52,624 nt of DNA from a virus, in the IMG/VR virus record IMGVR_UViG_3300045738_000739, positions 1-52,624 of that record; one strand, 5' to 3'. The notes beneath the pieces are model-generated. The model was given only the letters and a program-made list of their open reading frames with translations, made no database searches and was not told where the DNA came from. A program made the position numbers and the translations under genes. Below, in pieces: positions 1,833-52,624 of this stretch; the first letter of the stretch is position 1, and each line of letters begins with the position of its first letter.

Positions 1833-1889
1833 ATACGCCTTCGCCAGCTCTTGTTTGATCTCTCCTCCCAGGAGAGTTGAGTTTAGAAA

Positions 1890-1976: not shown

Positions 1977-2072
1977 GATCTTCGCCTCTACAGGTCTGTA
2001 TGCGCGAATTGTCGCACTGCTCCTGCACTACTAAAGACGGATACGACCTGGCAGCGAACCGGAACTGCAAGC

Positions 2073-7408: not shown

Positions 7409-7423
7409 GTCCGTGTCACGAGG

Positions 7424-7654: not shown

Positions 7655-7735
7655 GTGAAACACCTCCGACTGAGTTATACTCCAATTGTCGCCTAATTGC
7701 GCGGCACCCCCATCATCTTGTGTTGTTCTTCCACA

Positions 7736-28703: not shown

Positions 28704-31478
28704 CTAAGCACCAGCGGAGAACGACGACGACACAAGGTGAACAGTCGTTTTGATGAAGTTGACTGGGATCACCGGAGCGATCTCCACGTCAATTGTCATC
28801 ACATCGTTGTTCAGCTCAACCGTCAAATTCTGCCAGTTCGTAATTGCGCCGACGTTGATCAACTGACCCAAGACACCAACTGAGATACTAACCGTCGCAG
28901 TAACGGTGCCAGCAAAGCCCTTCTTCCCAATCATCACTTCGAGTGATTGACGGAAGTTGTAGACTGCATAATTGACAGCCTCGTTCACGCTGGCTTCGAT
29001 ATACGCGAGGTTGTTATCGATGAGATGCGTAGTCACGTTGCGAAGCCACCGAAAGCCCTTGTTGGGCACCTTTTCGATCATCGCGAGACCAGCCTGAATC
29101 AGCTCGTGACCGTCGTCCTTGATCGTGTAGCTCGAATCCTCAATTGTCTCCAGAATGTTGAGGTACTTGAACGTGAGCGAAGTCCCAACGCTTGAGCCCG
29201 CCTGCATTCCCGCAGCTACGCACGCAGTGAACGGTGGTTCCATCTGCTCCACTGCGCCCAGTGTGTTGAACCGCTTCACGTCCTGAATATACAGACGAGC
29301 ATGCCGCGTGTTGAGCGCTAGCGAAGCCGACTTCGCATCGTTCAACGTCGTACCGCTCGGTGCCCCAAGCAAACAGTCTCGTTCGCTTCTTCCCGGTCCA
29401 CCCATGTAGTTGCAGTGGCTCACGGTCGCTGCGTGAATCGCTGGACTGTCGGTCAGAACCACAAGCGTGTTGATGCGGAAGTCACGAAGCAGATCGAGAG
29501 CAGCCTGCCAATGGCTGAACATCGTCGTCCCCTCGATCCCACCGCCGAGTGCGATTGGGTTGGGGGTATTCGCGGGTGCCTGCGTGCCGAGAACCTGCGC
29601 AGTGACGTAAGCAGAGCCTCCGTTCAGAGCCTCCGCAATCGCCTCCAGAATCGCTGTCAAGCCCGCCGCGAGTGCGCCTGTGCCCGCCGGTACGCTCGTC
29701 ACCTTGTCCAGATTCGAGACATCGTAACCTGCCGGATTCGGCTCGTCCGTGGACATCGACCAATCGCCAAGCGTGGCGAAGAAGTCTGACCAGTCTTTCA
29801 GCGTGGCATACGTCACCACTGGCAGGCTGTAGAGGTCGGCGGTAAGAACAAGATCGGCTCCGCGTAGGTGGCCCGTCGCCACTCGCTCTAATGAACCCCA
29901 GGTGCTCGCAGTTGTTCCGTTCGCGCCTGTACCAAGATCGACAACTTCCATCTGCGGTGCTCCGCTGGGATCTGTGCCGACGAGCAGCACATCGCTCGTC
30001 GATGCCGTCGCCCAGTCAACCGTGTTGCCTTGGATCGACAGGTCTTGCGCGAACTCTTCAAGTCCTCGCGAAAGCTGCCCCACTGTCAGTGTGAAAGCCA
30101 ACACGGAATCCTGCTGGCCGGAAACGCTGATCGTGCCGTTCGCCGAAGACGACAATAGAACTCCGTACAAGACCGACCACGTTCCAGTCGATGTCGCCGC
30201 AGCCATGCCGGTCAGGACCACATTCTCCGATTGCACTGCGCCGAGATTGTCGAGCCCGTACAGCGTTGCCGTCTGAATATCGAGCGCACTAGCCGAAACA
30301 AGCTCGATCTGGTCACCACTGTTGAGCAAGAGCCCGCTCGCCTGCACCACCTTCGCATCTGCGACCATCCCGGTGCCAATCGACGTGATGGCTGAGTAGC
30401 CCAAAAGCGCATCGACAGGTGTCGTCGCATTCAGGATTACGATCTCAGACTGATCCGCTCCACCGTTGTCCTTGCCGTAGAGCACGACCGCTTGAGTCAC
30501 ACCCGCTTCTGAAGTGAGCGTCACCGTGCTGTTGTTCTCGGCCAGCTCGATTGGACCTGCAAAGTCGTTCAGGCCGAACTGAAGCTGACCTGCCGCAATC
30601 GTGAAGACCACGGTCGCGCTCATGTCCTCGAAATGGACATTTCCGGCTGCGACTCCATCGAGCTGCGCGGCGTAGATGGCTGACCATGTGATCGCCGATG
30701 CCACGGTATTTGTCCCGTTGAGGGCGAGAACTTCACTAGCCAGAAGTCCCGTATTGTCGTCTTTGCCCCACAGTGTGATCGATTGAGTCGTGTCCCCAGC
30801 ATCGGAGCTTTCGACCGTGCCCATATCAGGCAAAGTGCTAACGTCAGACTGACCCACCGACGTGACCACCGTAGTGCCCTGGTACTCTCCGAGAGTTTCG
30901 GGGATCGTCTTCGACGCTTGTGCCGTCAACCCGGTCGCTGGATCGAATGACGCATCAGCCGTCCAGTCGCCCGCATAGTCGAGACTGACCTTATCGTCCG
31001 CACCGATGTCGTCAAAGTCTTCGACCTCGGACTCAAACTCGATGATGAGCCGTTTGCCTGCCACCGTGCCGTCGCTGACCTGCACACGGATCTTCTCGGT
31101 GAACTGCCCCCAATCGCGCGATGTCAGTAGCAACGAATTGCCCGCATTGTCGTCTAACAATGTGAGAGACGATTGGGTCGCCGGGTTGATCTTGACGAAC
31201 TTGACCTCTTGCGCACCACCCGGAATGTCGGGGTCTTTGCTGGGGTCGAATAGAATCTGTCCAGCCTCGCGTACATCGCCCGACCTGAACAGTCGCCCGA
31301 TCTTGCCGGGGTTGCTCACGCTCTGGACAATCGCCGGCTCACCGCCTTCGCACTCGCCAAGACAAGCCACGATTCCAGATGCGCCCAAATTGATTGTCGC
31401 CAGCCCGCTTGCATCGACCTCGGAATAGCTGCCAGGAATGGAGGTCACTCGACCATTGAAGTAAATTGTCGTCGCCAT
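28704..31478 (-). CDS. Tail sheath protein with four inserted repeat domains
   Basis: The protein has 924 residues from ATG 31478 (GGAGG upstream); the longer open frame lacks a ribosome site. The C-terminus has the sheath signature: an alpha-helical handshake region, then VGVLGQLINVGAITNWQNL and PVNFIKTTVHLV. The N-terminus resembles the sheath start (PGSYSEVDASG). Between about residues 230 and 550 lie four related units keyed on (L/V)YGKDNxGAxQSE-V-L (about 231, 328, 402, 494), each about 50-95 residues. They are arranged as two superrepeats of about 170 residues. Such inserts likely decorate the outside of the tail. The protein is longer than most sheaths (typically 400-660 residues) because of this insert. 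Confidence 0.85.
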   Translation of the reverse strand: MATTIYFNGRVTSIPGSYSEVDASGLATINLGASGIVACLGECEGGEPAIVQSVSNPGKIGRLFRSGDVREAGQILFDPSKDPDIPGGAQEVKFVKINPATQSSLTLLDDNAGNSLLLTSRDWGQFTEKIRVQVSDGTVAGKRLIIEFESEVEDFDDIGADDKVSLDYAGDWTADASFDPATGLTAQASKTIPETLGEYQGTTVVTSVGQSDVSTLPDMGTVESSDAGDTTQSITLWGKDDNTGLLASEVLALNGTNTVASAITWSAIYAAQLDGVAAGNVHFEDMSATVVFTIAAGQLQFGLNDFAGPIELAENNSTVTLTSEAGVTQAVVLYGKDNGGADQSEIVILNATTPVDALLGYSAITSIGTGMVADAKVVQASGLLLNSGDQIELVSASALDIQTATLYGLDNLGAVQSENVVLTGMAAATSTGTWSVLYGVLLSSSANGTISVSGQQDSVLAFTLTVGQLSRGLEEFAQDLSIQGNTVDWATASTSDVLLVGTDPSGAPQMEVVDLGTGANGTTASTWGSLERVATGHLRGADLVLTADLYSLPVVTYATLKDWSDFFATLGDWSMSTDEPNPAGYDVSNLDKVTSVPAGTGALAAGLTAILEAIAEALNGGSAYVTAQVLGTQAPANTPNPIALGGGIEGTTMFSHWQAALDLLRDFRINTLVVLTDSPAIHAATVSHCNYMGGPGRSERDCLLGAPSGTTLNDAKSASLALNTRHARLYIQDVKRFNTLGAVEQMEPPFTACVAAGMQAGSSVGTSLTFKYLNILETIEDSSYTIKDDGHELIQAGLAMIEKVPNKGFRWLRNVTTHLIDNNLAYIEASVNEAVNYAVYNFRQSLEVMIGKKGFAGTVTATVSISVGVLGQLINVGAITNWQNLTVELNNDVMTIDVEIAPVIPVNFIKTTVHLVSSSFSAGA

Positions 31479-31488
31479 CGTCTTCCTC

Positions 31489-31869
31489 CTAGCCCAATCG
31501 CTCTGGGCTCGCCTGGTGACTGCCGCCTTCTGGGCCACGACGACAGCCGTAAATCGGTTGTGCCGCGAACTCTGCAAGCAGGGTCGTCCACTCTTCGGCT
31601 GGCCTGTACTGGTTAGTGTTCACACCCTTCGACTTGCAAAAGGCCGCGAACGCATCGCCGCCTTTTGGGAACAGGTCCGACTTGTTGCCAGCATGGGATG
31701 CCGTGATCTTTGGCCCGCCTGTCGAGGCTGCCTTTTTGGTCCCCGTGACGCCGACTCCAGTCGAAGAATCACGTCCTCGCAGGATCGGGGCTGCTACAGC
31801 CGAACTCGACCCAGAATCAGAGGCGACAATTGCCGATTTGGTGGCGGGGGCTCGTCTTTTCCTTGCCAT
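31489..31869 (-). CDS. Small basic head/tail-connector region protein
   Basis: The protein has 126 residues. The first 55 are basic and Ser/Thr/Gly/Ala-rich (probably disordered), and the rest has helical elements with a Cys pair (FAAFCKSKG and PIYGCRRG). ATG 31869 has GAGGAG upstream. It precedes the sheath gene by ten bases and follows a 129-base gap. No function is recognised. Confidence 0.55.
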   Translation of the reverse strand: MARKRRAPATKSAIVASDSGSSSAVAAPILRGRDSSTGVGVTGTKKAASTGGPKITASHAGNKSDLFPKGGDAFAAFCKSKGVNTNQYRPAEEWTTLLAEFAAQPIYGCRRGPEGGSHQASPERLG

Positions 31870-37216: not shown

Positions 37217-38740
37217 TTACGCGAACGCACCCGTTTCGAGGTTGCCGATGTTGGTGTAGATGCCGTTCTTGTTTGGAGCCATGATCTGCAACGCTAAATA
37301 CAAGACCTGCATCCAACGTATGCTCGTGTCGATGGTTGCCAGTGGGATCTTGGTAAACGGCGCGAGTTGTTTTATCTTGATGACATCGCTGGTTTGCGTG
37401 AGCATGTACGCCTTGTTCGTTCCCGGTAGGAAACGATTCATGTCAGTTCGCGCCGTGTCTTCGCTTCCCGGCTGTACCGGAATCTTGAAGATCAAGCGTG
37501 CCGTCGAGATGTCCGCGCCAGCGACGGTGCGATAAACCTCGTAGTACGTTGCTGCGTTAGCACCGCCGAACGACGAATCGCGAATCGTGAAATCGACCAC
37601 GTTGTCCGTAGCCGTAACGGTCGCGGCTGCGGCTGCATCGACGGGTGCCGTCTTACCGTGACGGTTGCACGCAACCACACGGTACTCGTACACACCGACT
37701 TCGCTAGTCGTGAAGAACGCGACCTCGCCGGGATTCGCATTGTTGAACGCGCGAGCAGCCGGATCGGACTGCCATGACGGCACACCCGGAATTGCTCCAC
37801 CACCGATGGCTCCGACAGCCGGAAGACCGGAAGTCGGAATGAAGATGTCGCTGTTCAGTGAGATGTCGCCGAACGGAGTAGCGATCCCCTTGATCGCGAT
37901 GCCAGCCAGCCCATTCTTGGGAGCGGGCAGGTCGTAACGCTCTTTCGGGTACAGGATCTTGCTCAGATCCTTCATGGGTGCCGGCGGCAACCACAAGTCG
38001 GAAGGAGCACCGTAGTTTGGCTCGGAGATCAAACGCTCGGTCATGTCAGCAATGTGATCCTCTGAGAGAGGAGCACCACGCATGTCGATCACGTTGTCCG
38101 TCGCATAGCCGCTGTACTGACCGTCTGCCTGACGGACGTTACCGAAGCTGTGTACGAGGGTCTTTTCCAAGCCGTCGAACTGGATACCTACGAGGTCTTC
38201 GTCGCCATCGAAAAGCGAACGCTCCAATTGTCGTAGCAGGAACAGCGTTCCGTTCACGGTCTCGCGAGCGACGACATCGCCGTGTGCGGCTTTGAGCAAG
38301 CTCATGACATGGGTCACGCGCCGCGTAACGCCCATGAACTTGATCCGCGTGTAGTTACGACGGTAAGTGCTGTCGTCCTCGGTCGGCAGTTCGCCTTCCG
38401 CCATGAACGACGCAACACCGGAGCCGTAACCGAGAAGTTGGTTGAACTCCTCGACGGTATTGTATGCGCTATCCTTGTACAGCGCCTTCCAGAATTTGAC
38501 GTCGCTCGCGCGATACGTGACGTTGAACAGCGTCGCGTCGAGACTCTCGACACGGAGCGGGAAACCTTCACCAGCGGCAACAGCCGGGGCGTTGATGTCC
38601 GCGCCAGCCGTCAGTGCCTTATTCAGCTCACTGACATCAGTTGCAGATGCGGTGCCGCCGATGAGTCCACTTTCTGGCGTTCCCATCGAGGCATTCGCAA
38701 GACCTTCGTAATCTCGCCATGAAACAAATTCACCAGCCAT
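37217..38740 (-). CDS. Major capsid protein with fibronectin-like insertion
   Basis: The protein has 507 residues. It follows the protease and scaffold genes, and a region with RVTHVMSLLKAAHGD and long helical elements is consistent with the HK97 fold. The C-terminal part (about 445-507) has the closing strand and the helix of the P-domain. About residues 345-425 contain a FN3/Ig-like pattern (VGVYEYRVVACNRHGKTAP, then ATYYEVYRTV), likely an externally exposed insertion domain. ATG 38740 has AAGGAG upstream. It is larger than typical (about 300-400 residues) because of this insertion. No maturation cleavage site is certain. Confidence 0.8.
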   Translation of the reverse strand: MAGEFVSWRDYEGLANASMGTPESGLIGGTASATDVSELNKALTAGADINAPAVAAGEGFPLRVESLDATLFNVTYRASDVKFWKALYKDSAYNTVEEFNQLLGYGSGVASFMAEGELPTEDDSTYRRNYTRIKFMGVTRRVTHVMSLLKAAHGDVVARETVNGTLFLLRQLERSLFDGDEDLVGIQFDGLEKTLVHSFGNVRQADGQYSGYATDNVIDMRGAPLSEDHIADMTERLISEPNYGAPSDLWLPPAPMKDLSKILYPKERYDLPAPKNGLAGIAIKGIATPFGDISLNSDIFIPTSGLPAVGAIGGGAIPGVPSWQSDPAARAFNNANPGEVAFFTTSEVGVYEYRVVACNRHGKTAPVDAAAAATVTATDNVVDFTIRDSSFGGANAATYYEVYRTVAGADISTARLIFKIPVQPGSEDTARTDMNRFLPGTNKAYMLTQTSDVIKIKQLAPFTKIPLATIDTSIRWMQVLYLALQIMAPNKNGIYTNIGNLETGAFA

Positions 38741-38789
38741 CGTCTTCTCTCCTTAGATAATCAAAGGGCGAGAACGCCCCTTCTTGGGG

Positions 38790-39821
38790 TCAGGATGCTG
38801 CGCCTACCTGTCGGATTGCAGCCATCACGTTTTGAGGGATGTTTCCAGTTTGCTCGAACAATGCCGTTGCATGCGTGATGCGATCCATCGCAGCGTCGTC
38901 AGTCTGCTCACTCGCGTGAATCATGAGAGTCCGAAGACCACTCTTGATGTCACCTTTAGTCAGGTCATCGTTGCTTTCACCGATCACAGACTTCGCGAGC
39001 TGACGCGAAACGACTTGACCAGTCGAAGTTTGAATTGCGCGTCGCGGAGCCGGCGAACCTTCGACGGTCTCGACACGATCGCCCAGACCCTTGATGATTC
39101 CGTCCTGCTCGGCGATCACGTTGCACAGACCTTTCAGCAGAGAGCCCTGCGCCTTCAGCAGCTCGCGCGTTGCGCGACCGTCGCGACACACCTCAGTCTC
39201 GACCGCATCCATACGCTGGTCGATGCCACCGACAAGCGACTTCAGAAAGTCGCTAGCGTCCACGAGGTTCGACGTGTCTTCGTCTTCTCCGAGAACGTCC
39301 GCAACACTCTTGCTCAGAGCCTCGCTATTGTCGTCTTCGTCTTCGTCAGCCCAGAGGCGTCCCAGCTCTTGCCGTTCGCTCTTGGAAATGGTGCCCGAAT
39401 CGAGCCTCGCCTGGAGAAAGGACTCCCGGCTATTGCCGCTTTCCGACAGTGCCTCTTCGACGGCTGTGTACGCTTCGACAGACTTCATCAAATCTGACAC
39501 GGATACGTCGCCCGACTTCTTCGCCTTCTTCTTCTTCTCCATGTCTTCACCTTCTTCTTCCGACTCGTCGTCGTCGTCCGTGTCTTCCTCTTCGTCGTCG
39601 TCGTCGGGGGAATTGTCGCCTTCTTCGACGGGCAGCGCTTTGAAAGTGTCCTCGTCCAGAAGTTCGTCGTCACCGCCCTTTTCGAGCATGATCTCTGAGT
39701 ATGATTTGTACGTCAGATCCGCTGGGCGCATTCCGCGCGCCAGCACTGACAACGCCCGACCTGCTGGGGTGAGCCCGCCTTCGGGATCCGGCTTTCCGAG
39801 TTTCTGACTTGCTGCTGCCAT
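38790..39821 (-). CDS. Acidic scaffold-like protein
   Basis: The protein has 343 residues. An acidic Asp/Glu run with a Lys cluster (about 75-105) is followed by a long helical region with repeated charged heptads (about 105-240). Between the prohead protease and major capsid genes, such a protein is the classic internal scaffold removed by the protease. The stop of the protease gene lies two bases before the GGGAG-led start. Exact domains are not recognisable. Confidence 0.65.
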   Translation of the reverse strand: MAAASQKLGKPDPEGGLTPAGRALSVLARGMRPADLTYKSYSEIMLEKGGDDELLDEDTFKALPVEEGDNSPDDDDEEEDTDDDDESEEEGEDMEKKKKAKKSGDVSVSDLMKSVEAYTAVEEALSESGNSRESFLQARLDSGTISKSERQELGRLWADEDEDDNSEALSKSVADVLGEDEDTSNLVDASDFLKSLVGGIDQRMDAVETEVCRDGRATRELLKAQGSLLKGLCNVIAEQDGIIKGLGDRVETVEGSPAPRRAIQTSTGQVVSRQLAKSVIGESNDDLTKGDIKSGLRTLMIHASEQTDDAAMDRITHATALFEQTGNIPQNVMAAIRQVGAAS

Positions 39822-39823
39822 CG

Positions 39824-40807
39824 TTATCTCCCGCTGTGGCTGGCCCGGTCCACGATCAGTTCGACCTGTTCAGCCGACAATTGAGGTTTCATGGAGCCGA
39901 CAATAAGTCGAGCCTCAGATTTTGTCATCTCCATTTCGACTGGTTCCTTACTGAACTCTGCCATCGCATCGGCCCAATGGTGGGCGTAGTCAATTGTCGT
40001 CATGACTTCAGGCGTAGCCCGCACTCTGGCCGAATTGTCGCCTTTCGTCAAGTGCGGGTTTTTGCCGGCCACACCGCCTTGATTCGGCTGACCGCCATCT
40101 TCGGACGGAACTGCGCTCAGAAACGAGAGCCCGAACTCTTCTGCGATGGCTTTCTTCTTCTTCTTGCGTTTCTTCGGGGTCTTCTTTTGGTCGTACTGAG
40201 AACCGTCCAGTGATTCTGTTCGTAGCGCGAAACCGCTATCGGTCGCGCCTGCTTCGCTGCCGACCGTATGCCCAGCCGACAATGCCTTGGCAAGCGCAAT
40301 CATCTCGGTCGAGGTATTCACCGGGCAGTGCGTGATCGCCACGTTGCGAACTTCGGCGGCGACAATACGCGAATTGTCGTCTTTGTCGCGACGAAGCACC
40401 TTCCCCTCGATGCTGAAGCCAAGCCGTCGCTCTCCTCCAGTTTTCTGGAGTGCGGCGCACAAGTCGTAAACACGGCGACCTTCGTCGGTGTTCAGCAAAT
40501 AACCCTCTGTCCACCAGCCCTTTTTGTCCGCACGGCGGCCATTTGGCAGCATTGCGCCCTTGGTCACTTGATACGCAGCAGTCGGATAGCCCAGGACATC
40601 AACAGTCTTCTGCCCGTGGTTGTCGTTGAACCAGCCATGCGCCAGGAACGGGCTAAAGTCGAGACCGTCTTGGACGACAACCTCTTGCTGGCGATCGAGG
40701 TCTTGCGTGCTGACGACTCCCCCAACGCGCATCGAACAACCGTCTTCAGCTTCAGACTTCTCCCAAACGCTTAGGGGGATGTGGAATTTGAAAGCTCGGT
40801 CAGACAC
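39824..40807 (-). CDS. Prohead protease
   Basis: The protein has 327 residues, starting with GTG 40807 (GAGG seven bases upstream). The fold follows the HK97-type prohead protease pattern: a catalytic His in NDNHGQK (His about 64) and the Ser in RLGFSIEGK (Ser about 132). The later AITHCPVN strand (about 157-164) also fits. After about residue 175 there is a basic Lys-rich segment (KKTPKKRKKKKK) and an acidic helical tail; many such enzymes are fused to a scaffold-like tail. It is followed by the separate acidic scaffold-like protein, then the capsid gene. It cleaves scaffold during head maturation. Confidence 0.83.
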   Translation of the reverse strand: MSDRAFKFHIPLSVWEKSEAEDGCSMRVGGVVSTQDLDRQQEVVVQDGLDFSPFLAHGWFNDNHGQKTVDVLGYPTAAYQVTKGAMLPNGRRADKKGWWTEGYLLNTDEGRRVYDLCAALQKTGGERRLGFSIEGKVLRRDKDDNSRIVAAEVRNVAITHCPVNTSTEMIALAKALSAGHTVGSEAGATDSGFALRTESLDGSQYDQKKTPKKRKKKKKAIAEEFGLSFLSAVPSEDGGQPNQGGVAGKNPHLTKGDNSARVRATPEVMTTIDYAHHWADAMAEFSKEPVEMEMTKSEARLIVGSMKPQLSAEQVELIVDRASHSGR

Positions 40808-41130: not shown

Positions 41131-41468
41131 CAGTAAACCTGAAGCCCCAGCACACCCGCAGCCGAAGCTACCCGCGAACCCATGTGGCAGCGGTGAACGG
41201 AGCACGCCTTGGCGACTCCACGAAGCACCCTCTGTAGCCCGTCAGAGCCGTGGTGGCGCATGATGTACGCGCAGGTTGACTGGTGCTCCAGCCAGTCAAC
41301 CAGCCAGTCCAGACGGTTGGAGTCCCCTTCCTCGTAGAGCCGGTCGAATGCCGAGATGTTGGGCAGGGGTAGATCGACCTCGCCGGGCAGCCCGGTCGGT
41401 CCAGCTGACCAGAGAACGTGCTCCAAGCGTAGCCCTCTTGGAAGCTCAAACTGTTTGCTGTGTGGCAT
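41130..41468 (-). CDS. Small unknown protein
   Basis: The protein has 112 residues from ATG 41468, six bases after AAAGGAG (the nearer in-frame ATG 41474 is too close to that site). It has His-rich segments (IMRHHGSDG, VHRCHMG) and two cysteines near the C-terminal third. It overlaps the last bases of the giant protein gene and couples to the zinc-ribbon gene. No function is assigned. Confidence 0.5.
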   Translation of the reverse strand: MPHSKQFELPRGLRLEHVLWSAGPTGLPGEVDLPLPNISAFDRLYEEGDSNRLDWLVDWLEHQSTCAYIMRHHGSDGLQRVLRGVAKACSVHRCHMGSRVASAAGVLGLQVY

Positions 41469-44400
41469 CGTCATCTCCTTTCATGAGTTTGCGAGCAAAG
41501 TCGAAAACTAGGCGAATCGCCTTGGTGATAACAGTGCTGCTAGCCTTGGACAGCGACAGTGAATCGACCTGCTCAAAATGGCCCGCGACCGAGAAGTCTG
41601 TACCTTCCTGCACGTTTCGGATGATCTGTTCAAAGCTGATCTTGCGGCTTCTGCCCATCGCTCGGGTGCGCCGCTCAGTCGCAACGGGGTGCTCTTTCTC
41701 GTAGCCGGTAAAAACGCGCTGTGGGTCCGGTTTCTCACCATCCACCTTTTTCGGATGGTGAACATGAACCTGGCCAACATTCCCAGATGTGCCCAGCACT
41801 CGCACGTTGACGAGGTATTTCTTCGTTTTAAGCACCGCTCGATCTTCGGGAGTCAGCATGTCGATGAGGCGATTCTGGACATCGTCGTTGGAAACGATGC
41901 CACCCATCGGGCCAGCCTTCATAGCCTGCTCAACTTCGTCCCGCTTATCCTCCATCCAAGTAAAAATCTCGTCAGCTCGAATCGCGAGGTACACCGCAGC
42001 AGCATCGTGCGAACCCGTGCCCGTCGCGGGGTCGTGCTGAACGAAGCCTGCATCCATGACAGCCTTTCGCTCCGCTTCGGAGAGTTGGTAAATCGTGTCG
42101 CCGACTGTCACCGCTTTGCCGTCTAGCGCGTCACGCACTGCGCTCTCAGCATTGACGCAGTGCATAGGCCCGCCACGCGCTAGCGAGGCGTAAGTGCCTG
42201 ACTCAATCTTTTCGGCGAGGTCTACCATCTCCCCCTGCGGAATCGAGATCACTGTTCCGGTACCGCCAGGGATTTTCCGTTTATTCAGCTCATTTAAGAG
42301 CTGATACTGGGTGTTTGCGCCAAGCGTGGCCGCCGTCGCGCACTTGTTGGCCAATAACGTCCACTCGGCAGCAAGCCGGCGTATCTGGGAGCGCGATTCG
42401 CTGGACGGTGGGGCTCCAGGGCAAAGGCGAGTGCGATAATCCTCAGACACCTCAAGACAGCGTGTGCGGATCAACGACAAGGCACCCTCGAACTGCATAC
42501 TTTTAAGCTGCTCGCCTTCGCGTCCAGCGATAGGCCCATTCAAAGTGAGCTTGCCGATATGGCCGACTGGGCGGTCACGCGGACCCGCCTCAAAGATGGC
42601 AGCTTCCATATTTCTGATCTTGCTGAATGGCCCGCTACCGTCGTACTTGGGCCGACCCTTGTCGTCGTACTCCTGAACCATGAACGGGATCTTCTTGCCG
42701 TTCTCGTCCAACTTCGGTTGATTCTGGTCGTCGGTCTCCCAAACAGATTCACCCTTGTGATTCTTCTTCTGAGACATGATGGCGCGACCCAACAGCTTAC
42801 CTTTGACGGCTGCCGGCAGCATCCGCGCGCACCGGGTCGTCCGCTGATCCTCTGCCATCGGGCTCGCCAACGTGTCGTACTTGAGCATTTCGGTGGCATT
42901 ACCGAGATTCATTCCAACCTGCGCAGCATCGGAACAAACGATGACCTCGCAGTTGTTGAAAACCGTCGTCTGCTTAGACGACAATACAGGCGTGTCAGTC
43001 GCACCCTGTTTTGCCAATGCGGTGTACTCTTCTTTCAACGATTGAAGTTCTCTCTTCGCACCCTTCTGGTCGTCGTCAGCCATCTTGTTCGGATCCCCAA
43101 TCTTGGCGATTCGACTCAAAATAGCAGCAGAGCGTTTCGTCCCGTTAAAAGCACGCTTCTCTGTCGTACCATCGCCTTTGGAAACCAAAACGAACGACTC
43201 CGGTGCTTCGATCTTGAACTGCGCGAAAATCTGACTGCGCTGCTCTGCCGTCCACTGGCTAAGCGCAACGTCGTCGGGAGGCTTGCGGTCACCTGGATAG
43301 AGCATCCAGTTCGATTCGTATTCTTTGCCCTTATCCCCAAACACACCCTTCGCGTCCTTCCACGTACTCGCGGGACGGGGCTCAGTGCATTTATGGACAA
43401 AGAGAGAGACCTCGGAATCGCGCTGTAGTGCATCTTTGACCTTCTGGAAGATCGCGACATTCAGCTCACGATCGCCTGTATAGGTCGCGCCAATATAGGT
43501 GACAAAATACTTGTCGTTGGGACTACCATTCTTGGTCGTCTTGTCCTCGGGATCGTAATGCGGCGAACCTTCGAGAACTTCGTTCACATCCCGAAAGCCC
43601 ATCTGCCGCATCTTCGCTTCCATTGTGCGGCACGAGTCGAGAATGCTGTTACCGAACATAACTAGCTGACGCGCGCCATCCGGTCCTGCCTTCCCACCCT
43701 GGCTATAGAACCGGGTGACGTGATCCTCCAGCTCATCCGCCTTCGCGTTCTGGTGGGTACACGCTATGTCGAACTTGTTGCGCTCAGCACGCATGCCGGG
43801 GTCAAAGATGCTTTTGACGAGTGCCGAAACATCCTTTTCCTTGACGATCAAAACCTCGCCGGTCCCAAGCACGCGAACACCCGCTTGACCCACTGGTGCT
43901 GCGATGTCGGGATCATACCGAAACTGCGGAGGCACCCAGTTCTTACGCGCCTCTTTCGCAGCCTCGCGCTCTTCGGGTTGCAAACCGCGTGGCACTCCCG
44001 GCGGAACGATACCCGCAGCCTTCATCGCGCTAGCCGACAATTGGACTAGAGCACCCGACCTGACTGCCGCGAAACCTTCCTTGCTCAGATCCTTGGGCCT
44101 GTGATTCTTCTCATCCCAGTCTTTCGGCATGAAGACCACATGCTGCGATCCTTTGGGATCCGAAATCCAATTGTCGTCGGTCGTGAGCTGAACCGGATCG
44201 CCGCTGTGGTCGGCTGACCACGACTGCTCAATGATCGTAGGCGAAGGGTGGATCTGGAGCAGCGCTCGACCTTCCTCCAGCGAGATCCCAAGACGGTTGC
44301 AGACGTTCTGGAGACCTTCCTCCCAATCCCCGTCAGGCGGCTCAAGCTGAAGCTCCGTGCGCAGCGCACGCTGAAAGTGCAGCGCTCGGTCGATCTCATC

Positions 44401-47400
44401 GACCCGTGCAGCCCGCTGCCCCAGCAAAGCCTTCTGGGCACTGCCAGAGGACCGCCTGATGCGCTCGTTGATCTCGTCCAGCCAGTTGATCCCGTGACCG
44501 CGAAAACGCACACCCAGCTCACCCGCGTCGGGGTTCTCGATCTTCTTGCCTAGTGGCGCATCCCAGCCAGCATCGACCATGCGCTTCAAAGCTACCTTCG
44601 TCTGTGCTGCCGTGGGCTTGCCTGTGCCCTTGTAACCCGGCATCCCGGTGCCGATCCACTTGCCCGCAAGCTCAGCATACGGCTGCCCCAGAACTTCCTG
44701 GCAGTACAGATCATAGACGGCAGCCTGCTCAGGTCCGATCTCCTCGATGCGCTTAAACTTCCCTTTCGCAGTGCCTCTGGACTTGTCCATCAGTTCCGAA
44801 GGTCGGAACGTGGTGAAGTCAACCCGTGAGTTTGATTCACCACCCGACTTGTTAAAAGTGACCGTCGTCACCCTAATAAACTTCTCGGGATTGCCCGCTT
44901 TATATCCAATACAATTGGTGATCGCCTTGGCTGCCTTCGTCAGCTTACGTGTCTCCTCGTCACTGATGCGGTCGATCTCTTCCGGGTCAAGTCCAGCTCC
45001 ACCCGTATCCGAACCTAGTGACGCCATATACAGGTTGAACAGCGTTTCCTGGATGCCCTTCATCTCTGCGAACTTGCTCTCCTCTGTACGGACACCGGGG
45101 AGAACCTTGCCTCGCACATCCTTCGGTAAAGCTATGTCCATCCACTTCGCGAGAATGGCCGCAAGCTCACCCATCTTTTCCGCCTTAACCGACAGCTTTG
45201 CACCCTTTCCAGATTCGCCAAGCTGCCCAGGAACGGGCGTCTCCTCCAAATACTCGTCAATGAATTTCTTGCTGGTCATGTCGGGCCATTCTTTGCCCTT
45301 CGACAATAACCGCACATACTCAACGAAGTCGGTCGGTGATGTCGTCATCGGAGTGCCGGTCAACAACATCAGCATCTTCATGTCGTCATTCCACTCACGC
45401 ACTACACGATTTCTCTCAGCCGTTTCATTCTTGATGCCCATGTGAACCTCGTCCACGATCAGCCCATCGAATCCACACTGCTTGAGTTTGGCCGCATGCT
45501 TCGTAAAATACTCAGGACCGACGACAACCAGATCGCCGCGCGAACTATCTTTCATCGCAAGAAATTCATCTGCTGAAATATCGCCTGACCCGCGACCGAC
45601 CACTTGCGCTCCCTCATCGAAATCGGCACATGCTTTACGCCACTGCTCAACGGTGTTGAGCGGAGCGACAACCAGCACACGCTTCGGATTACCCGGATTG
45701 CGCCGCGTATTGTCGAAAGGATTATTCTCGTACCAATCTTTGATGTCCTCCGCTGTCATCTTGGCTTTCTCAGCCGATGAGAGCTTCGCGCGAGCAGGAC
45801 GTTCCATCATCATTTTCGCGGCGACAATTGCGGAGACAGTCTTGCCCGTGCCCATATAATGAGCAGCAAGAACTCGACCATCGTTGTCTATCATTTTCTG
45901 AAGCAGCTTTTGCTGATGGCCGCCCAACGTGAACTCTTCGCCCGATGGCAAACGCTTGTTGAGCCCTGCGCCCCAATTGTCGGCGAGATTTGCGGGATCG
46001 ATCTCAGCCAACGACATCTCGTGCGCGTCAGCCGACATCGACTTCTCAGCATCCACAAGATGATCAATGCGCTGCTTCAGATAAGTGTCCACCTCGCCAG
46101 TCAACGAAAGCCCACCAAGCATCTTCCGCAACTCGGGGAAGCGGTCAGCTGGAACCTCGACCGCAGTGATCTCACCCCTCAAACCTGGAACTAGCTCTGG
46201 GCCTTGATCGGCAGCAACCGCTCCTTGGATGGCGAGGATGGAATCGGCGGACACACGTCCGTTCTTCGGTAGCTTGACCCGCAAACTCTTGTGCATCGTC
46301 GCGCCCGTTCTCGGATCGACATCGTGGTGCATGTAGACCAGCACCTCATTTTCGAGAGCTTCTGGCGTGTGTGAGCCCTTTGGCCAGCTCGTTGAAGAAC
46401 GAACTGCGTCCTCACCGTAGCGAATAAAAGTACGACCCGGCGTGCCGCCGCCGACTTCGCCTTTGAAGAGGTAAGCAGTCGGATACGCTTTCGCCTTCTC
46501 CGATTTGTACGTCGATCGGTACGCCGCCATCGCGGGGACGAAGTGGGCATTGAACCACTCTCGATACACGTCGCCGCCATTGTACCACTCGGGAAGAAGA
46601 CCCTGTTTGATGTAGCCCTTCTCAGCCTTGGTGAGCTTCTGCCCATCGGGAACCGGGTGCGACGGCGTCAAGTTTGGGATGTAGTTCCCAGCCAAATCCT
46701 TGGGCATGCGATCCCAACCAGGCTTTGGCGGCGCTTCACCGGCTTTCTTACCCATGATGATCCGCTCAAGACGAGCGACAACCGTCTTGTCCTCAATGAC
46801 CGGATCTGTTTTAGCAGTGGCGTCGATCAGAACACGCGAACCCTTTGTAGGCAGCGCACCCTTTGGCGGCTTTGCAGGCGGGTTGAGTGTGATCTGCTGC
46901 GCACCGATGACAGCGCGTGCGCCTTCACGAAAAGCGAAGATCGGATCGTCCTTCAGCAAGTCGTCGATGCGCGGCTCATCTTTGCCAAGACGACTCGCCC
47001 ATTCCTTGCCCATGATCTTGGGCTGGCCGGAACCATCGTACTCGACCTGCATGTGGTAGACGTGTTCGCAGTCGCCCTTCTTCCCCATCTTCCATTTGCC
47101 GTTAGCCTTCTGAATGCGCTCACGGTCAGTGCGAACAGAGATCCAAGTAGTGCGCTTTTCAGCAGCCGCCTTCTTGCAGAAACGACGCAAATCGTCGGCA
47201 GAGTTGATCGACTCACCATACGGAGTAAGCAACGCTGACCACATTGGATCGGAGACTCGGAAGCCTGTCCCCCTGGGATCGCGATGGCAGTCAATTGTCG
47301 TCGTCGTTCCATCCGGGTTGTCATTCACAAAACGCTTGGAATCGAAAATGGGCTCGACCTTGCCGGTCACATGGTTGACAGCCGTCACCACATCAGCACG

Positions 47401-49629
47401 GGTGAAATGTCCCTTGGCGTTACGCGCCATTTTGATCTTGATTCCAGGCTGCTTTTTGCGCAGCTTGGTCAGCGCAAGACGCTTCTGCTCGTCTGTCTGC
47501 GCGCGTTGCCACGCGCGCATCTCGGACTCGCCCGCCGTGTCCCAACGGTCGTAAGAGAACGTGCCAGACCTCTGACGGAACTCGCGACAGGTAAGCTCGT
47601 GCGGGCGCATAAGCGCAGGCTTTGGCGGTTTGCCGTTAGCGTCGTTGTAAGCCGCCTCCATCTTAGCCAGCTCATCGGCAGTCGCCTTACGTTCTGGCTT
47701 CTTGAGCGTCCACGCTTTGCCGCTCTTGATCGCAACAACACCCTTCTCAAGTGCTTTTTCGAGTAAGGCTTGACCGGCAGTAGTCGTATCGCGCAGAAGG
47801 AATTTTGGACCCATCTTGTCCACCAAGGCTTGGACCTTGGCTGCCTTGGCTGCGGACACTTTAGAACCCGACTTCTTACTCTTGAGACCTGTCGGGAGAT
47901 CGAGAATGTCTTGCAGCGTAACGTCGAGCTTTTTGCCTTTGACAGTAACCTGCGCAATCTTCGCTTTGGGGTCGTCGAACTGGTCCTGCATCAGATGCCA
48001 GTAGATCAAATCCCGATCAAGAGGCTGACGGTTTTCGTCAAATACCTCTTTGATGTCCTCTGCCCTGATCACTGCGTTATTGGACGACTGACTCGGATCA
48101 GACGGATCCCAGTTAGGCTTTCCCATGTCCCCATCAACCGACTGTTTGCCATAACGGAAATAAATCGTCCTACCCCGATAAGACATCTCGAAGAATCGAT
48201 CATGCAGCCGCTTCGTCTGACGACCGATTTTGTCTTCGTCAGGCGGATCCGCGACGTACTGAGTCTCGCTAGTCTGCGGGGGACGCGGAACAGCCTGGAT
48301 CAGCTTGGCCACTGGCTTGACTTCTTTTCCGGCGAACCAGGCCAACCTCTCATCCTCGAAATCCATCTCGTCCAACCCGTCCAACTTGTCGAGTCTCTTT
48401 TGGACGGCAGCCTTGTCGGCTGGGCTCCGCGCTGTATCAAGCTCAGCCTTTAGCTTCTCGATCCCAACCTTGTCGGTCGTGAGCGGAAACATCTCATCGG
48501 CACCGATGAATTGTCGCATCCACTCATACGTCTTCGGGCAGCTCACGGACATCTGCTTCGGGTACAGGATCGAACAGGAAAAGCTCTCAGCGAACCGCTC
48601 CTTCATGTGGACATCACGACCCTTTTGAGTGATCTCAGCGTAAGCCGTGATTCCCGGCTCTTTGCCCTTACCCACGAGGTTCTTCTCGAAGAACGAAACC
48701 CAGTCCTTCCAAAGAGGCCCGTCATAATCCGGCCCCATATCGTTCGGACCTCGCGCACCCATCTTGTTGTGGATCGCGTGCGCCATCTCATGGACCAGAA
48801 TATCTACAGAAGATGTGCCCGCATCGAACTGAGGAAGATGCTCCCCTCTCGGAGCGATCCTAGAACCACCCCAGGCGGGCTGTTTTACCCCTTTCCCCGG
48901 CGTCTTCCCCGACCAAGATCCGTCTGCGCCAGTCAGGTCGAGTCCCAATACGATCTTTGAACCCTGAGTCCCCCAGCCTCCAGCCATGCAATAAGCCGAA
49001 GCAGAACCACGACGGAGATAAGCGTCTTCGTCCTTGGTCGTCACCAGAAGCTCGGAAATAGAGCCGGAAAAATGCTTGCGTATATTCGACGGGATCTGCC
49101 GGAACCCTAAGTCGAGAATCCTGAGAGCGTGGATCTTCTGCCCGTACAATTCGTCGGGCTCACCTCCCAAGTCCGCATAATGTTCCTCGACCGCATCCTT
49201 GAAAACCGACTGCGCTACAGGCGACAATACAATCTCGGGCGGCTTGTCCCACGCTAGAAACTCGGTGACCAGATCCACGGTCAAATCTTTTAACTCGGTA
49301 CGCGCCGCACGCAGCTCCGGGTGATCGCCCTTAAACTCGGAGCGCAGACCACCCTCATGCTCTTCGACAGGAGCCTGCGGGGCTTTGCCTTGCAGCTTCT
49401 TAACCTGCTTCTTCTTGCGCTTGATCTTGCGCGCCTGCGACTCCAAGAACTGCTTCCGACCCTCTTCGTTGTCGTAGTAGTATTTCCACCGGAGCTTGCC
49501 CTGCGACATCGTGCGGACTCGACGCCAGTATTTGTGCCCTGCTTGCGCGCCTCGTGCGAAGCCAACGCCCGCTTTCTCAAGCTCGTCGGGTGTGTACGTG
49601 GGATGATCCAAATTAAGCCCGAACTTCAT
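41446..49629 (-). CDS. Giant polyvalent-type protein: zincin peptidase plus split SNF2 helicase
   Basis: The protein has 2,727 residues from ATG 49629, after GAGGAGG; the stop of the preceding gene overlaps (ATGA). An N-terminal part with a basic patch is followed at about residue 280 by the zinc-peptidase motif VHEMAHAIHNKM, with a further Glu in ERFAESFS about 60 residues later, as in gluzincins. A SNF2-like helicase begins near residue 1235: GTGKT (motif I, about 1256), DEVH (motif II, about 1395), LLTGTPM (motif III, about 1423). The second lobe has motif V/VI-like CSDAAQVGMNLG and DQRTTRCAR (about 2230-2265), so roughly 800 residues separate the lobe motifs. Such multi-domain giants packaged in virions are known as polyvalent proteins; DarB of P1 is a simpler relative. 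The position between portal-side genes and head genes fits delivery with the DNA, perhaps for defence evasion or DNA remodelling. Confidence 0.75.
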   Translation of the reverse strand: MKFGLNLDHPTYTPDELEKAGVGFARGAQAGHKYWRRVRTMSQGKLRWKYYYDNEEGRKQFLESQARKIKRKKKQVKKLQGKAPQAPVEEHEGGLRSEFKGDHPELRAARTELKDLTVDLVTEFLAWDKPPEIVLSPVAQSVFKDAVEEHYADLGGEPDELYGQKIHALRILDLGFRQIPSNIRKHFSGSISELLVTTKDEDAYLRRGSASAYCMAGGWGTQGSKIVLGLDLTGADGSWSGKTPGKGVKQPAWGGSRIAPRGEHLPQFDAGTSSVDILVHEMAHAIHNKMGARGPNDMGPDYDGPLWKDWVSFFEKNLVGKGKEPGITAYAEITQKGRDVHMKERFAESFSCSILYPKQMSVSCPKTYEWMRQFIGADEMFPLTTDKVGIEKLKAELDTARSPADKAAVQKRLDKLDGLDEMDFEDERLAWFAGKEVKPVAKLIQAVPRPPQTSETQYVADPPDEDKIGRQTKRLHDRFFEMSYRGRTIYFRYGKQSVDGDMGKPNWDPSDPSQSSNNAVIRAEDIKEVFDENRQPLDRDLIYWHLMQDQFDDPKAKIAQVTVKGKKLDVTLQDILDLPTGLKSKKSGSKVSAAKAAKVQALVDKMGPKFLLRDTTTAGQALLEKALEKGVVAIKSGKAWTLKKPERKATADELAKMEAAYNDANGKPPKPALMRPHELTCREFRQRSGTFSYDRWDTAGESEMRAWQRAQTDEQKRLALTKLRKKQPGIKIKMARNAKGHFTRADVVTAVNHVTGKVEPIFDSKRFVNDNPDGTTTTIDCHRDPRGTGFRVSDPMWSALLTPYGESINSADDLRRFCKKAAAEKRTTWISVRTDRERIQKANGKWKMGKKGDCEHVYHMQVEYDGSGQPKIMGKEWASRLGKDEPRIDDLLKDDPIFAFREGARAVIGAQQITLNPPAKPPKGALPTKGSRVLIDATAKTDPVIEDKTVVARLERIIMGKKAGEAPPKPGWDRMPKDLAGNYIPNLTPSHPVPDGQKLTKAEKGYIKQGLLPEWYNGGDVYREWFNAHFVPAMAAYRSTYKSEKAKAYPTAYLFKGEVGGGTPGRTFIRYGEDAVRSSTSWPKGSHTPEALENEVLVYMHHDVDPRTGATMHKSLRVKLPKNGRVSADSILAIQGAVAADQGPELVPGLRGEITAVEVPADRFPELRKMLGGLSLTGEVDTYLKQRIDHLVDAEKSMSADAHEMSLAEIDPANLADNWGAGLNKRLPSGEEFTLGGHQQKLLQKMIDNDGRVLAAHYMGTGKTVSAIVAAKMMMERPARAKLSSAEKAKMTAEDIKDWYENNPFDNTRRNPGNPKRVLVVAPLNTVEQWRKACADFDEGAQVVGRGSGDISADEFLAMKDSSRGDLVVVGPEYFTKHAAKLKQCGFDGLIVDEVHMGIKNETAERNRVVREWNDDMKMLMLLTGTPMTTSPTDFVEYVRLLSKGKEWPDMTSKKFIDEYLEETPVPGQLGESGKGAKLSVKAEKMGELAAILAKWMDIALPKDVRGKVLPGVRTEESKFAEMKGIQETLFNLYMASLGSDTGGAGLDPEEIDRISDEETRKLTKAAKAITNCIGYKAGNPEKFIRVTTVTFNKSGGESNSRVDFTTFRPSELMDKSRGTAKGKFKRIEEIGPEQAAVYDLYCQEVLGQPYAELAGKWIGTGMPGYKGTGKPTAAQTKVALKRMVDAGWDAPLGKKIENPDAGELGVRFRGHGINWLDEINERIRRSSGSAQKALLGQRAARVDEIDRALHFQRALRTELQLEPPDGDWEEGLQNVCNRLGISLEEGRALLQIHPSPTIIEQSWSADHSGDPVQLTTDDNWISDPKGSQHVVFMPKDWDEKNHRPKDLSKEGFAAVRSGALVQLSASAMKAAGIVPPGVPRGLQPEEREAAKEARKNWVPPQFRYDPDIAAPVGQAGVRVLGTGEVLIVKEKDVSALVKSIFDPGMRAERNKFDIACTHQNAKADELEDHVTRFYSQGGKAGPDGARQLVMFGNSILDSCRTMEAKMRQMGFRDVNEVLEGSPHYDPEDKTTKNGSPNDKYFVTYIGATYTGDRELNVAIFQKVKDALQRDSEVSLFVHKCTEPRPASTWKDAKGVFGDKGKEYESNWMLYPGDRKPPDDVALSQWTAEQRSQIFAQFKIEAPESFVLVSKGDGTTEKRAFNGTKRSAAILSRIAKIGDPNKMADDDQKGAKRELQSLKEEYTALAKQGATDTPVLSSKQTTVFNNCEVIVCSDAAQVGMNLGNATEMLKYDTLASPMAEDQRTTRCARMLPAAVKGKLLGRAIMSQKKNHKGESVWETDDQNQPKLDENGKKIPFMVQEYDDKGRPKYDGSGPFSKIRNMEAAIFEAGPRDRPVGHIGKLTLNGPIAGREGEQLKSMQFEGALSLIRTRCLEVSEDYRTRLCPGAPPSSESRSQIRRLAAEWTLLANKCATAATLGANTQYQLLNELNKRKIPGGTGTVISIPQGEMVDLAEKIESGTYASLARGGPMHCVNAESAVRDALDGKAVTVGDTIYQLSEAERKAVMDAGFVQHDPATGTGSHDAAAVYLAIRADEIFTWMEDKRDEVEQAMKAGPMGGIVSNDDVQNRLIDMLTPEDRAVLKTKKYLVNVRVLGTSGNVGQVHVHHPKKVDGEKPDPQRVFTGYEKEHPVATERRTRAMGRSRKISFEQIIRNVQEGTDFSVAGHFEQVDSLSLSKASSTVITKAIRLVFDFARKLMKGDDDATQQTV

Positions 49630-49970
49630 GCCACGCCTCCTCGCCCAGTTGGGCAAACGCGCGTCAACGGAAACTTGCGAATTGCAGCGCCGAAGTGCTT
49701 GGGGTCGTCAGCCGTCACCACACCAGACATCATCACGTCCATGTTTGGGTCGTCACTCTCCCCCGCCCACCGTGTCCACACCGGCTGATCCATGAAGGTC
49801 GCTAGCTCAGCCCAAAACGAACTGTCGGCTACTTTGGCATCGAACTCGACAACACGGAACCCATGGTCAGCGCTCTCGTCGCGCTCCAGCGAACATGCCC
49901 AGCGGAACTGCGGACGATGCGCGCGGTAGTACCTGTGTAGGTGATAAATGTCTTTCTCTGCATCAGCCAT
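49626..49970 (-). CDS. Small unknown protein
   Basis: The protein has 114 residues from ATG 49970, which has AAGGAG six bases upstream; the longer open frame lacks one. It is Trp- and Asp-rich with an acidic middle and a loop ending in CPTG. It overlaps both neighbours by a few bases, tying it to the giant protein and the sigma-like gene. No family is recognised. Confidence 0.5.
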   Translation of the reverse strand: MADAEKDIYHLHRYYRAHRPQFRWACSLERDESADHGFRVVEFDAKVADSSFWAELATFMDQPVWTRWAGESDDPNMDVMMSGVVTADDPKHFGAAIRKFPLTRVCPTGRGGVA

Positions 49971-52488
49971 TGTCATCTCCTTGTGACGCTGCTTCTTCTT
50001 TGGTGGGCACTCTGCGCGCCGCACCGGAAAGTTCTGCTCGATAGCGCTGCGCTGCTTTGCGGCCCGCCGCCGAAGCCGGATCAGGCATCGGAACCCGACC
50101 TGTAAATTGCTGGAACCGTGCCGGCGACATCACCTTCGACTCGCCGCCAAACGACGGACCTCTCCACGTCGTCGGATCCGATCCGCGTTTCAGCAGGGCT
50201 TGCATGTAGCCCCGCATCACCTCGTCCGCGTACAACCAGCTCGACTCTGGATCTGAGCCGGTCGGAATGGTCTCCACTTCGTCACTGCCAACGGACCTCG
50301 TTCTGCCGTATCGTAGAAATTCTGACAGCCGCTCTCGATCACGTTGCTCGTGATAAAGCTGACGAACCTCACGCTTCTCGGCAGCCGACGCTTTGCCTGA
50401 CTTTTCCCTCTTCAGAATCTTGCCAACGCGATCACCCCGCCCTGCTCTCACACCAGCCGCGTAAATCCTGACCCGCTCGTGTTCGAGCCCTTCAACATGT
50501 CCTGTCAGCACTGCAATCCTAGACGACAATTGATCCTGATTGTCGTCCTTCGCAGTATCACGCTTGGAACGCAATTGTTCAATCTGCTTTTTCGCGCTTG
50601 CAATAGCTTGTTTGTCAGCACCAAATCGAGCAAACAACTCGCGATAGCTGGGACCGGGCGACTCCTCGGTACCGAAGAACTGGCCCGGAGCACCAGCCTC
50701 GATCCACTTCTGCGCATGCAGTCGCGCCTCCGCACCCTTCTCGTGCGCAACACGCTGAAACATCTCGGTCGCCGCGCTGCGTGCCTGGGCTCCCAGACCC
50801 CTCTTGTGCCGCGCCGAATGCCCCTTTTTGGCGATGCCTAGCCGCTCAGCCAGCTCCTCGTTCGACATCACGACGTTGCCGCTCAATTGTCGCCTACCTT
50901 CGCCGGGTTCAGCGTCCGGTGTGAGGCCAAACAGCAACTCGATGGCTCGCGCATTCTGATGGCCGATCTTCCGCTCGTCGCTTCCCGGCTTCCCCACCTG
51001 TTCCATGTCGCTCAGAATGTCATCGATCTCACGACGCAGATGGAGCTGCGTCCCAACTGGAAAATCGGGATCAGTGTGCGGACCCGCCACCTCGTGCGGG
51101 TTTTGATTCATCCACTCAGAGTCGAGCACCCGGTGACCATCGAGCACCCGGTCGAGCGTGCTGATGAGTCGATCCTTGCCCGGCAGTTCCTTGCCCAGCT
51201 CCTTGCCGTCTGGAGCCCTAACCTGCCACCCGTCGAACGGAACTTCTTCAGTCGCCTGATCGACAACCTTGCCTACGTCGTTGTGGTAGACACCAAGTGT
51301 CGCCGCTCGTCCGGTGAAGGTGTCACGCTTCTGGAGTCTCCACGCTCTCGCGATTGCCTTCTTGGTGGGCTCCTCATCGGTCTTGCGACTGGCTCGGTGC
51401 TTGGCCGCGATGTAGCCGTGCATCAGGCGCATCGTCTGGTGCGGCACAGAGGGACCACCGCCGCCCAGCGCAGACCGTGCCGCATACGACGCATAGGTGT
51501 TGACGTAATCTTGGGCGATCATGGCAAACGGCTTGCCGCCTGAATAGCCACGCAAAGCCATCAAGAATCCAAGATTCGCACCGCTCTTGATCTCCTCGAA
51601 GTCGGGCGACTCGTTGCCATCGGAATCACGCATGTCGATTGCGTGGCTCGCGGCAACTTTACGCGATGCAGAGTGCAGCAGCCCTTTGAACTCCTGCAAC
51701 ATCCCGGCTTGGTCAGCCTTCGGAATGAAGATCCCTTGAGACTTCTTCGCGCGCAGCCCGCGCTCGCGATCCACGAAAGTCGCCAACGGATAATGACCGT
51801 TCTCGACCTTGTGCAAGAACGTACCAGCCTTGGCTCTCGAATCCGCGAACACCTTCGACCGCTCGGCTTCTTCGGAGACAGGATGATCTCCAGAACCCTG
51901 CTTTATGGGCTCTGTAATCGCCCTTCCTGGGGGTAGCTTTCCACCGGGTGTGCCGGCCCGTTTCTTCGGCGGTGGACGCCTGGGGGCTGTCCTACGGGGC
52001 TTCACGGGGGCTTTTGGCTTAGCCTTGCCCTTCATCGGCTGGAGTTTTGACGATCTGACCCGGATAGGCTCGCCAGCCGCCCGACCGTGCTCGGGATCGA
52101 ACGTGGTGACATGCGTGTACTTTCCGTCGTCGTCGGCTGCATCCGGTGTCCAAACGAACAGACCATGCCGACCTTGGATGCTGACGAACTGCCCCGCCTT
52201 GATGTCCGAGATCCCGGTCTTGCCGTAGTCGGCTTCCCAGTCGTGATGATCCCCGTGCTTGTGCTCTGTCGGGTACCAGTAGATCCAGCCTCGGCCCTTG
52301 CGCTTGCGGAACCCCCTATGCTTTGAGTTGGGGATCGAGCTGTAGCCGGCTGGTGGTTTGGTCACGCCGGCTTTGCTCAAGCTATTGTCGGCGACAATTG
52401 CTAGGGTCAGCTTCTTCGGTTTCGCCTTTCGAGCAGACAAGGGTGTTGCAAAAGCTGCCTGTATTTCTCGCACATGTGAAGGGTTCAT
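49963..52488 (-). CDS. Large protein with sigma-70-like regions and KOW/SH3-like N-terminus
   Basis: The protein has 841 residues. About residues 48-115 show a basic SH3/KOW-like pattern (SSIPNSKHRGFRKRKGRGWIYWYP, then GQFVSIQGRHGLFVW). A basic Pro/Lys linker follows (about 152-180). Residues about 300-385 resemble sigma-70 region 2/3 (LGFLMALRGY, YVNTYASYAAR, VPHQTMRLM, PTKKAIARAW). Residues about 511-570 resemble region 4 (ARAIELLFGLTPDAE, then SNEELAERLGIAKKGHSARHKRGL). A long helical C-terminal part follows (about 575-841) with possible coiled coil. The pattern suggests a virion- or early-expressed transcription factor, but the match is by eye and the motif spacing is loose. ATG 52488 has GGAGG ten bases upstream. 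Confidence 0.55.
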   Translation of the reverse strand: MNPSHVREIQAAFATPLSARKAKPKKLTLAIVADNSLSKAGVTKPPAGYSSIPNSKHRGFRKRKGRGWIYWYPTEHKHGDHHDWEADYGKTGISDIKAGQFVSIQGRHGLFVWTPDAADDDGKYTHVTTFDPEHGRAAGEPIRVRSSKLQPMKGKAKPKAPVKPRRTAPRRPPPKKRAGTPGGKLPPGRAITEPIKQGSGDHPVSEEAERSKVFADSRAKAGTFLHKVENGHYPLATFVDRERGLRAKKSQGIFIPKADQAGMLQEFKGLLHSASRKVAASHAIDMRDSDGNESPDFEEIKSGANLGFLMALRGYSGGKPFAMIAQDYVNTYASYAARSALGGGGPSVPHQTMRLMHGYIAAKHRASRKTDEEPTKKAIARAWRLQKRDTFTGRAATLGVYHNDVGKVVDQATEEVPFDGWQVRAPDGKELGKELPGKDRLISTLDRVLDGHRVLDSEWMNQNPHEVAGPHTDPDFPVGTQLHLRREIDDILSDMEQVGKPGSDERKIGHQNARAIELLFGLTPDAEPGEGRRQLSGNVVMSNEELAERLGIAKKGHSARHKRGLGAQARSAATEMFQRVAHEKGAEARLHAQKWIEAGAPGQFFGTEESPGPSYRELFARFGADKQAIASAKKQIEQLRSKRDTAKDDNQDQLSSRIAVLTGHVEGLEHERVRIYAAGVRAGRGDRVGKILKREKSGKASAAEKREVRQLYHEQRDRERLSEFLRYGRTRSVGSDEVETIPTGSDPESSWLYADEVMRGYMQALLKRGSDPTTWRGPSFGGESKVMSPARFQQFTGRVPMPDPASAAGRKAAQRYRAELSGAARRVPTKEEAASQGDDNG
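50522..50547. repeat. Motif pair facing inward in the sigma-like gene
   Basis: GACGACAAT and ATTGTCGTC are exact complements separated by 8 bases, inside the 841-residue coding gene. It shows a second spacing variant of the paired motif (another, at 40358-40381, has a 6-base spacer and one mismatch). Confidence 0.6.
52384..52399. repeat. Motif pair with one-base spacer, same geometry as 15153
   Basis: ATTGTCG, one G, then CGACAATT form an inverted pair inside the coding gene. The encoded stretch is AIVADNS. This reproduces the 15153-15169 layout with a different centre base, which suggests a preferred pair geometry. Confidence 0.6.
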
Positions 52489-52624
52489 AAGTGTTCGACC
52501 TCCACATACCTGACGGTAAGCTCGTCATGGAGCTTTTCGTCACGAACGGACTTCACGCGCATGCTGCCTGAACTTATCACTTCGTCTTCACCCGAATAGG
52601 CAGACACCCCATCGACGTAGGTTC
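52485..52624 (-). CDS. Partial unknown protein running off the right edge
   Basis: A frame open from the right edge ends with TGA at 52485-52487, overlapping the start of the 841-residue gene as ATGA. The last 45 residues end with VKSVRDEKLHDEL and then VEVEHL. In this position a portal-, terminase- or MuF-type gene might lie further right, but the visible part has no diagnostic motif. The overlap and direction support coding. Confidence 0.5.
   Translation of the reverse strand, partial: TYVDGVSAYSGEDEVISSGSMRVKSVRDEKLHDELTVRYVEVEHL

Follow-up and report, generated by a model that had tools for sequence, protein, structure and literature searches.

The sigma factors which phages encode as stand-alone proteins, such as SPO1 gp28 and T4 gp55, are of the sigma-70 type, act on the host RNA polymerase and are made after infection. 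Polyvalent proteins of phages, which are encoded near the virion genes and whose domains include InPase, ART, GNAT, helicase and the N4-type virion RNA polymerase, are probably packaged and injected, and the jump-starting of transcription is one of their themes (PMC5512222). The subject of this analysis is an 841-residue protein encoded in IMG/VR virus record IMGVR_UViG_3300045738_000739, the complete record of 52,624 bases being referred to here as the window. By profile comparison, the central part of the protein (residues ~259–581) is homologous to sigma-70, comprising counterparts of regions 2, 3 and 4, with an enlarged linker resembling region 3.2 between the last two. The chances appear about even that it is a phage polyvalent protein with a divergent sigma-70 module, which would be packaged, injected and used to steer the host RNA polymerase to phage early promoters.

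The gene had been picked out by a reading of the DNA alone (the original prediction), as an open reading frame (ORF) at 49963–52488 whose strand was left unstated. The 841-codon ORF exists and is encoded on the minus strand; read on the plus strand, the same interval is riddled with stops. Sigma-like stretches had been placed at residues ~300–385 and 511–570, and both fall inside the segments which a profile of 12 family members aligns to sigma regions 2–3 and 4. A search with the single 841-residue sequence drew a blank in Pfam, PHROGs and the PDB sequences, in genome contigs, and by tblastn in 50,697 phage records. A giant helicase gene next to it led instead to a contig, L002, whose protein at the same position is 40% identical to the 841-residue protein and syntenic with it. 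Together with 11 viral homologues, the window's protein makes up a family of 12 distinct viral members; these were aligned over ~370 positions, with zero sigma factors in the alignment.

Compared with the PDB, the 12-member profile matched sigma factors exclusively (56 of 56 matches up to E = 10), SigA being the best at E = 1.9e-9. The best matches consist of two separate collinear stretches, one covering regions 2–3 (profile positions 81–187) and the other region 4 (260–327). Every match of a profile restricted to regions 2–3 was likewise a sigma factor (24 of 24 up to E = 1), as were 37 of the 40 matches of a 5-member profile built from the window's nearest relatives, with a best E-value of 6.6e-5. 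Family profiles built from 6 or 8 sequences yielded hints only (FliA at E = 0.6 and 0.19), significance arriving with 12. Profile–profile comparison (hhalign) with E. coli RpoD, RpoS, RpoH and FliA spanned regions 2 and 4, with a probability of 96.4%, an E-value of 1.2e-9 and a score of 73.7. The search for sigma families which the original prediction had put forward as a check has thus returned significant matches, and as judged by these alignments the sigma-70 module is carried by 12 divergent viral proteins with both of its parts in the right order.

The failure of the single sequence in Pfam, PHROGs and the PDB is what would be expected if a helical protein resembled the sigma regions by chance, with no homology. 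We give that explanation hardly any credence in view of the strength of the 12-member match, its restriction to sigma factors and the outcome of the controls. Across 100 column shuffles the score never exceeded 22.5 nor the probability 1.3%, against 73.7 and 96.4% for the real alignment, and reversal of the family alignment lowered the profile–profile probability to 0.1%. In the reverse direction, a search with the E. coli sigma factors through all collected ORFs recovered the homologue on contig L037 at 1.8e-6, via both regions, and that on L008 at 5e-4. Whichever member was dropped from the family, RpoD and RpoS stayed the two best non-family matches, with one unrelated ORF never overtaking either, and a profile built without the window protein still recovers it at 1e-117. 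Chance resemblance was rejected on the shuffled, reversed and leave-one-out controls, and it is these, together with the reverse search and the profile matches, on which the homology to sigma-70 rests.

Within the protein, residues 259–349 (51442–51714; this and all further intervals are on the minus strand) form the region 2-like domain, as judged from the 12-member and region 2–3 profiles against the PDB and from the helices of the AlphaFold2 model. A region 3-like segment with the motif EPTxxxIAxxW follows at residues 350–392 (51313–51441), recognised in the family alignment and by profiles against the PDB. The place of sigma region 3.2 is taken by an enlarged segment with an invariant GK pair at residues 393–484 (51037–51312), delimited by alignment and profile–profile comparison. 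The region 4-like helix-turn-helix, residues 485–581 (50746–51036), corresponds to the second collinear stretch; profile–profile comparison, the reverse search and a long C-terminal helix in the model all point to it.

Structure prediction had also been proposed as a check. AlphaFold2 models were made of residues 205–603 with 8 sequences and of residues 254–396 with 12 sequences. The longer model has a mean pLDDT of 74.8, and the shorter, which is all helical, reaches 82.8. In Foldseek searches of the PDB, sigma and RNA polymerase entries ranked top for residues 205–603, with a best E-value of 0.018 and whole-length TM-scores below 0.2, and occupied the first 18 rows for the sigma2–3 model (254–396), none of them significant. 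Annotated phage sigma factors were among the best rows in the viral library. At such weak E-values, the predicted structure supports a sigma fold without proving it.

The remainder of the protein is less readily assigned. A KOW/SH3-like head had been proposed for the N-terminus. Residues 44–75 (52264–52359) turn out to be a shared tag of ~32 residues, KPPxGfxPIPxSKhGGyRKrxGxGYxYWYP, which recurs in large phage proteins; the proposal is correct only in part. Residues ~95–150 (52039–52206) do appear beta-rich by eye, with a sequence pattern conserved in near homologues, and could be an SH3-like barrel. The Lys/Pro-rich linker of the original prediction is borne out by the composition of residues 151–205 (51874–52038), which have a net charge of ~+13. 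C-terminal to the sigma-like module, residues 586–841 (49966–50733) form a conserved region aligned in near homologues. Many large phage proteins that otherwise differ from one another (on L010, L013, L015, L020, L024, L025, L026 and others) carry the tag in 1–4 copies each, the frequencies being biased by the fact that loci were partly fetched with this motif; a search of cultured phage records for it gave no match. Its role may be to target proteins to the virion or to separate domains.

The relatives place the sigma-like module among polyvalent domains. Pfam detects an N-terminal InPase in the homologues on L002, L004, L008, L032 and L037, and a sixth, on L020, is apparent by eye. The L008 homologue carries a GNAT acetyltransferase besides its InPase, and the 1597-residue homologue on L007 combines the sigma module with ART-PolyVal and a TMEM65-like domain (both by Pfam). 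Several disparate effector domains are therefore joined on one polypeptide among the relatives, as InPase, as InPase with GNAT, or as ART-PolyVal, each with the sigma module. The TMEM65-like membrane domain of the L007 protein (E 7e-15) lies at about residues 746–845, between ART-PolyVal and the sigma module. The neighbourhood is also conserved. Each of the 11 relatives has, after its sigma-like gene, a homologue of the window's 2736-residue SNF2 helicase protein; a Mu-F-like gene, so named from position and a weak Pfam score, precedes the sigma-like gene in nine of the 11, and a portal gene falls within the available stretch in seven. Comparison of the loci thus gives the sigma-like gene a fixed place in a block that also contains genes for a portal, a Mu-F-like head protein and the giant SNF2 helicase.

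The original prediction had set the gene beside head genes, and virion genes do adjoin it: those for capsid, scaffold and protease lie downstream of it in the window, and portal and Mu-F-like genes upstream in the relatives. Its further proposal of a virion protein gains indirect support from the InPase, ART-PolyVal and GNAT fusions of the relatives and from the conserved block. It is here that an ordinary late sigma factor has to be considered, one that would be made unpackaged during infection from the late genes and would switch the host polymerase to late promoters. Many phages do encode stand-alone sigma factors for switching expression (PMC7824862; PMC13282480), but fusion to InPase, ART-PolyVal and GNAT and possession of the shared tag are typical of polyvalent proteins and not of stand-alone sigmas, and we regard this explanation as improbable.

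The preferred reading, that of a polyvalent protein carrying a sigma-70 module, implies a sequence of steps. The protein would be built into the virion and packaged with the DNA, and would enter the cell together with it. The sigma2-like part would then bind the host core RNA polymerase as a sigma-like subunit, and the bound polymerase would be aimed at phage early promoters before the expression of any phage gene. From the sequences we infer packaging in the virion, injection, core polymerase binding and promoter choice alike, and with them the redirection of host RNA polymerase on entry which the original prediction had suggested. In its broadest form the proposal would be that an uncultured tailed-phage family injects a virion sigma factor, fused to other host-takeover domains, as a substitute for a virion RNA polymerase, so that the host polymerase is reprogrammed to early promoters; we advance this more tentatively, as a possibility falling somewhat short of an even chance.

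Several observations weigh against a packaged, working sigma factor. Residues Q406 and E407 of RpoD serve in core binding, and W433 and Y430 in melting of the -10 element. In the family, compared after the RpoD numbering had been checked, the Q406 position is mostly Ser and the E407 position is Gly or Ala in 12 of 12 members; the W433 position is aromatic in one member only, and the Y430 position is mostly His. No Foldseek match of either model reached E ≤ 0.001, the matches being individually non-significant. Pfam recognises neither InPase nor any other polyvalent domain in the window copy, whose sigma module is the only one identified, and a sequence search of cultured phages for a cultured relative found none.

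With several of the core-binding and promoter-melting residues changed, the protein may be a true sigma factor whose interfaces and promoter preference have shifted, or a repurposed fold; the residues agree with either. In the second case the protein would be of sigma-70 descent but would not initiate transcription, acting instead as an injected or internal head protein which binds DNA or takes up the sigma site of the host RNA polymerase and thereby shuts off host genes. The enlargement of the 3.2 segment, like the changed residues, is in keeping with such a role, and the evidence from polyvalent context fits it equally. On the other hand, all 12 members, divergent as they are, preserve regions 2, 3 and 4 in their proper order; the D403 position is acidic in 11 of 12 and the W434 position aromatic in 10 of 12. 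We consider repurposing rather unlikely, albeit a serious competitor to the sigma factor.

The window derives from a contractile-tailed phage, as indicated by its SPO1-type capsid, protease, scaffold, tail-sheath domain, and baseplate and replication genes, all of which are encoded on the minus strand. The head maturation protease, scaffold and major head protein occupy 37217–40807 (PHROG hits), the major head protein being of SPO1 type and ~35% identical to Bacillus phage capsids by tblastn. The tail-sheath domain forms the end of an unusually long protein of 957 residues (28704–31577). Directly downstream of the sigma-like gene lies a small conserved gene (49626–50024), which has homologues at the same position in seven relatives and whose true start is probably near 49976. 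The 2736-residue protein follows at 41446–49656; it contains an SNF2 helicase domain (Pfam SNF2-rel_dom 1.1e-16; PHROG 62 1.2e-30) and, by reading, a zincin-like HExxH motif near its N-terminus, and it too looks like a polyvalent protein from its sequence. It opens with a basic-aromatic stretch (AGHKYWRRVRTMSQGKLRWKYYYD) related to the ~32-residue tag, and its zincin-like motif reads HEMAH. On the other side, the 3' end of the upstream gene (52485–52622, by reading) overlaps the start codon of the 841-codon ORF in an ATGA. This gene end does not resemble the relatives' Mu-F-like genes. By eye it recalls the C-terminus of an ADP-ribosyltransferase; a database search with it returned no match.

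Among the relatives, contig L042, which is the same contig as L008, encodes from 1444 a second, separate protein with an N-terminal Sigma70_r2 domain and a long Lys/Pro-rich tail. On L037, the Mu-F-like gene (1561–3564) and the SNF2 helicase gene (6366–11684) contain apparent inteins, recognised by eye, that of the helicase splitting the ATP-binding GTGKT motif. A search of the viral contigs for RNA polymerase with PF00940 found nothing, but since no positive control was included, absence is not thereby demonstrated; Pfam and PDB sequence searches found no RNA polymerase catalytic domain in the 841-residue protein.

Literature searches of open-licence papers found no packaged or injected sigma factor and no sigma-70 module in a polyvalent protein, and the word sigma is absent from the main text of the paper which founded the class (PMC5512222). 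If the module works as proposed, it would represent a further way of starting transcription as the phage enters the cell. It would also be a compact factor for reprogramming, injectable and with mappable promoters. Even if the fold has been repurposed, the family would extend the polyvalent set by a domain derived from sigma-70, in a group of proteins missed by Pfam and PHROGs.

Parallels and differences can be drawn with each of the nearest described systems. The protein shares with the sigma-70 family (RpoD/SigA, RpoS, FliA) regions 2, 3 and 4 in order, with significant profile similarity. It differs in holding the module within 841 residues alongside a tag, a basic linker and a C-terminal region, and in its enlarged 3.2 segment and the change of several core-binding and melting residues. 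SPO1 gp28 and T4 gp55, by contrast, stand outside polyvalent proteins. With the polyvalent proteins of Iyer et al. 2017 (PMC5512222) it has in common a multidomain build, a place adjoining the virion genes and, in its relatives, InPase, ART-PolyVal and GNAT, although the window copy is without a recognised enzymatic domain. Jumbo-phage AR9 gp226 and phiKZ gp68 are also phage-encoded, sigma-like promoter-recognition parts, but the polymerase they serve is the phage's own non-virion enzyme, and their sequences show hardly any similarity to sigma (PMC9209446, PMC13282480). T4 Alt is an injected protein which acts on host RNA polymerase, albeit as an ADP-ribosyltransferase and not as a sigma factor (PMC5512222). 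The N4-type virion RNA polymerase offers a similar polyvalent context and a presumed start of transcription on entry (PMC5512222); N4, however, brings an entire polymerase, whilst the sigma-like module described here would need the host core.
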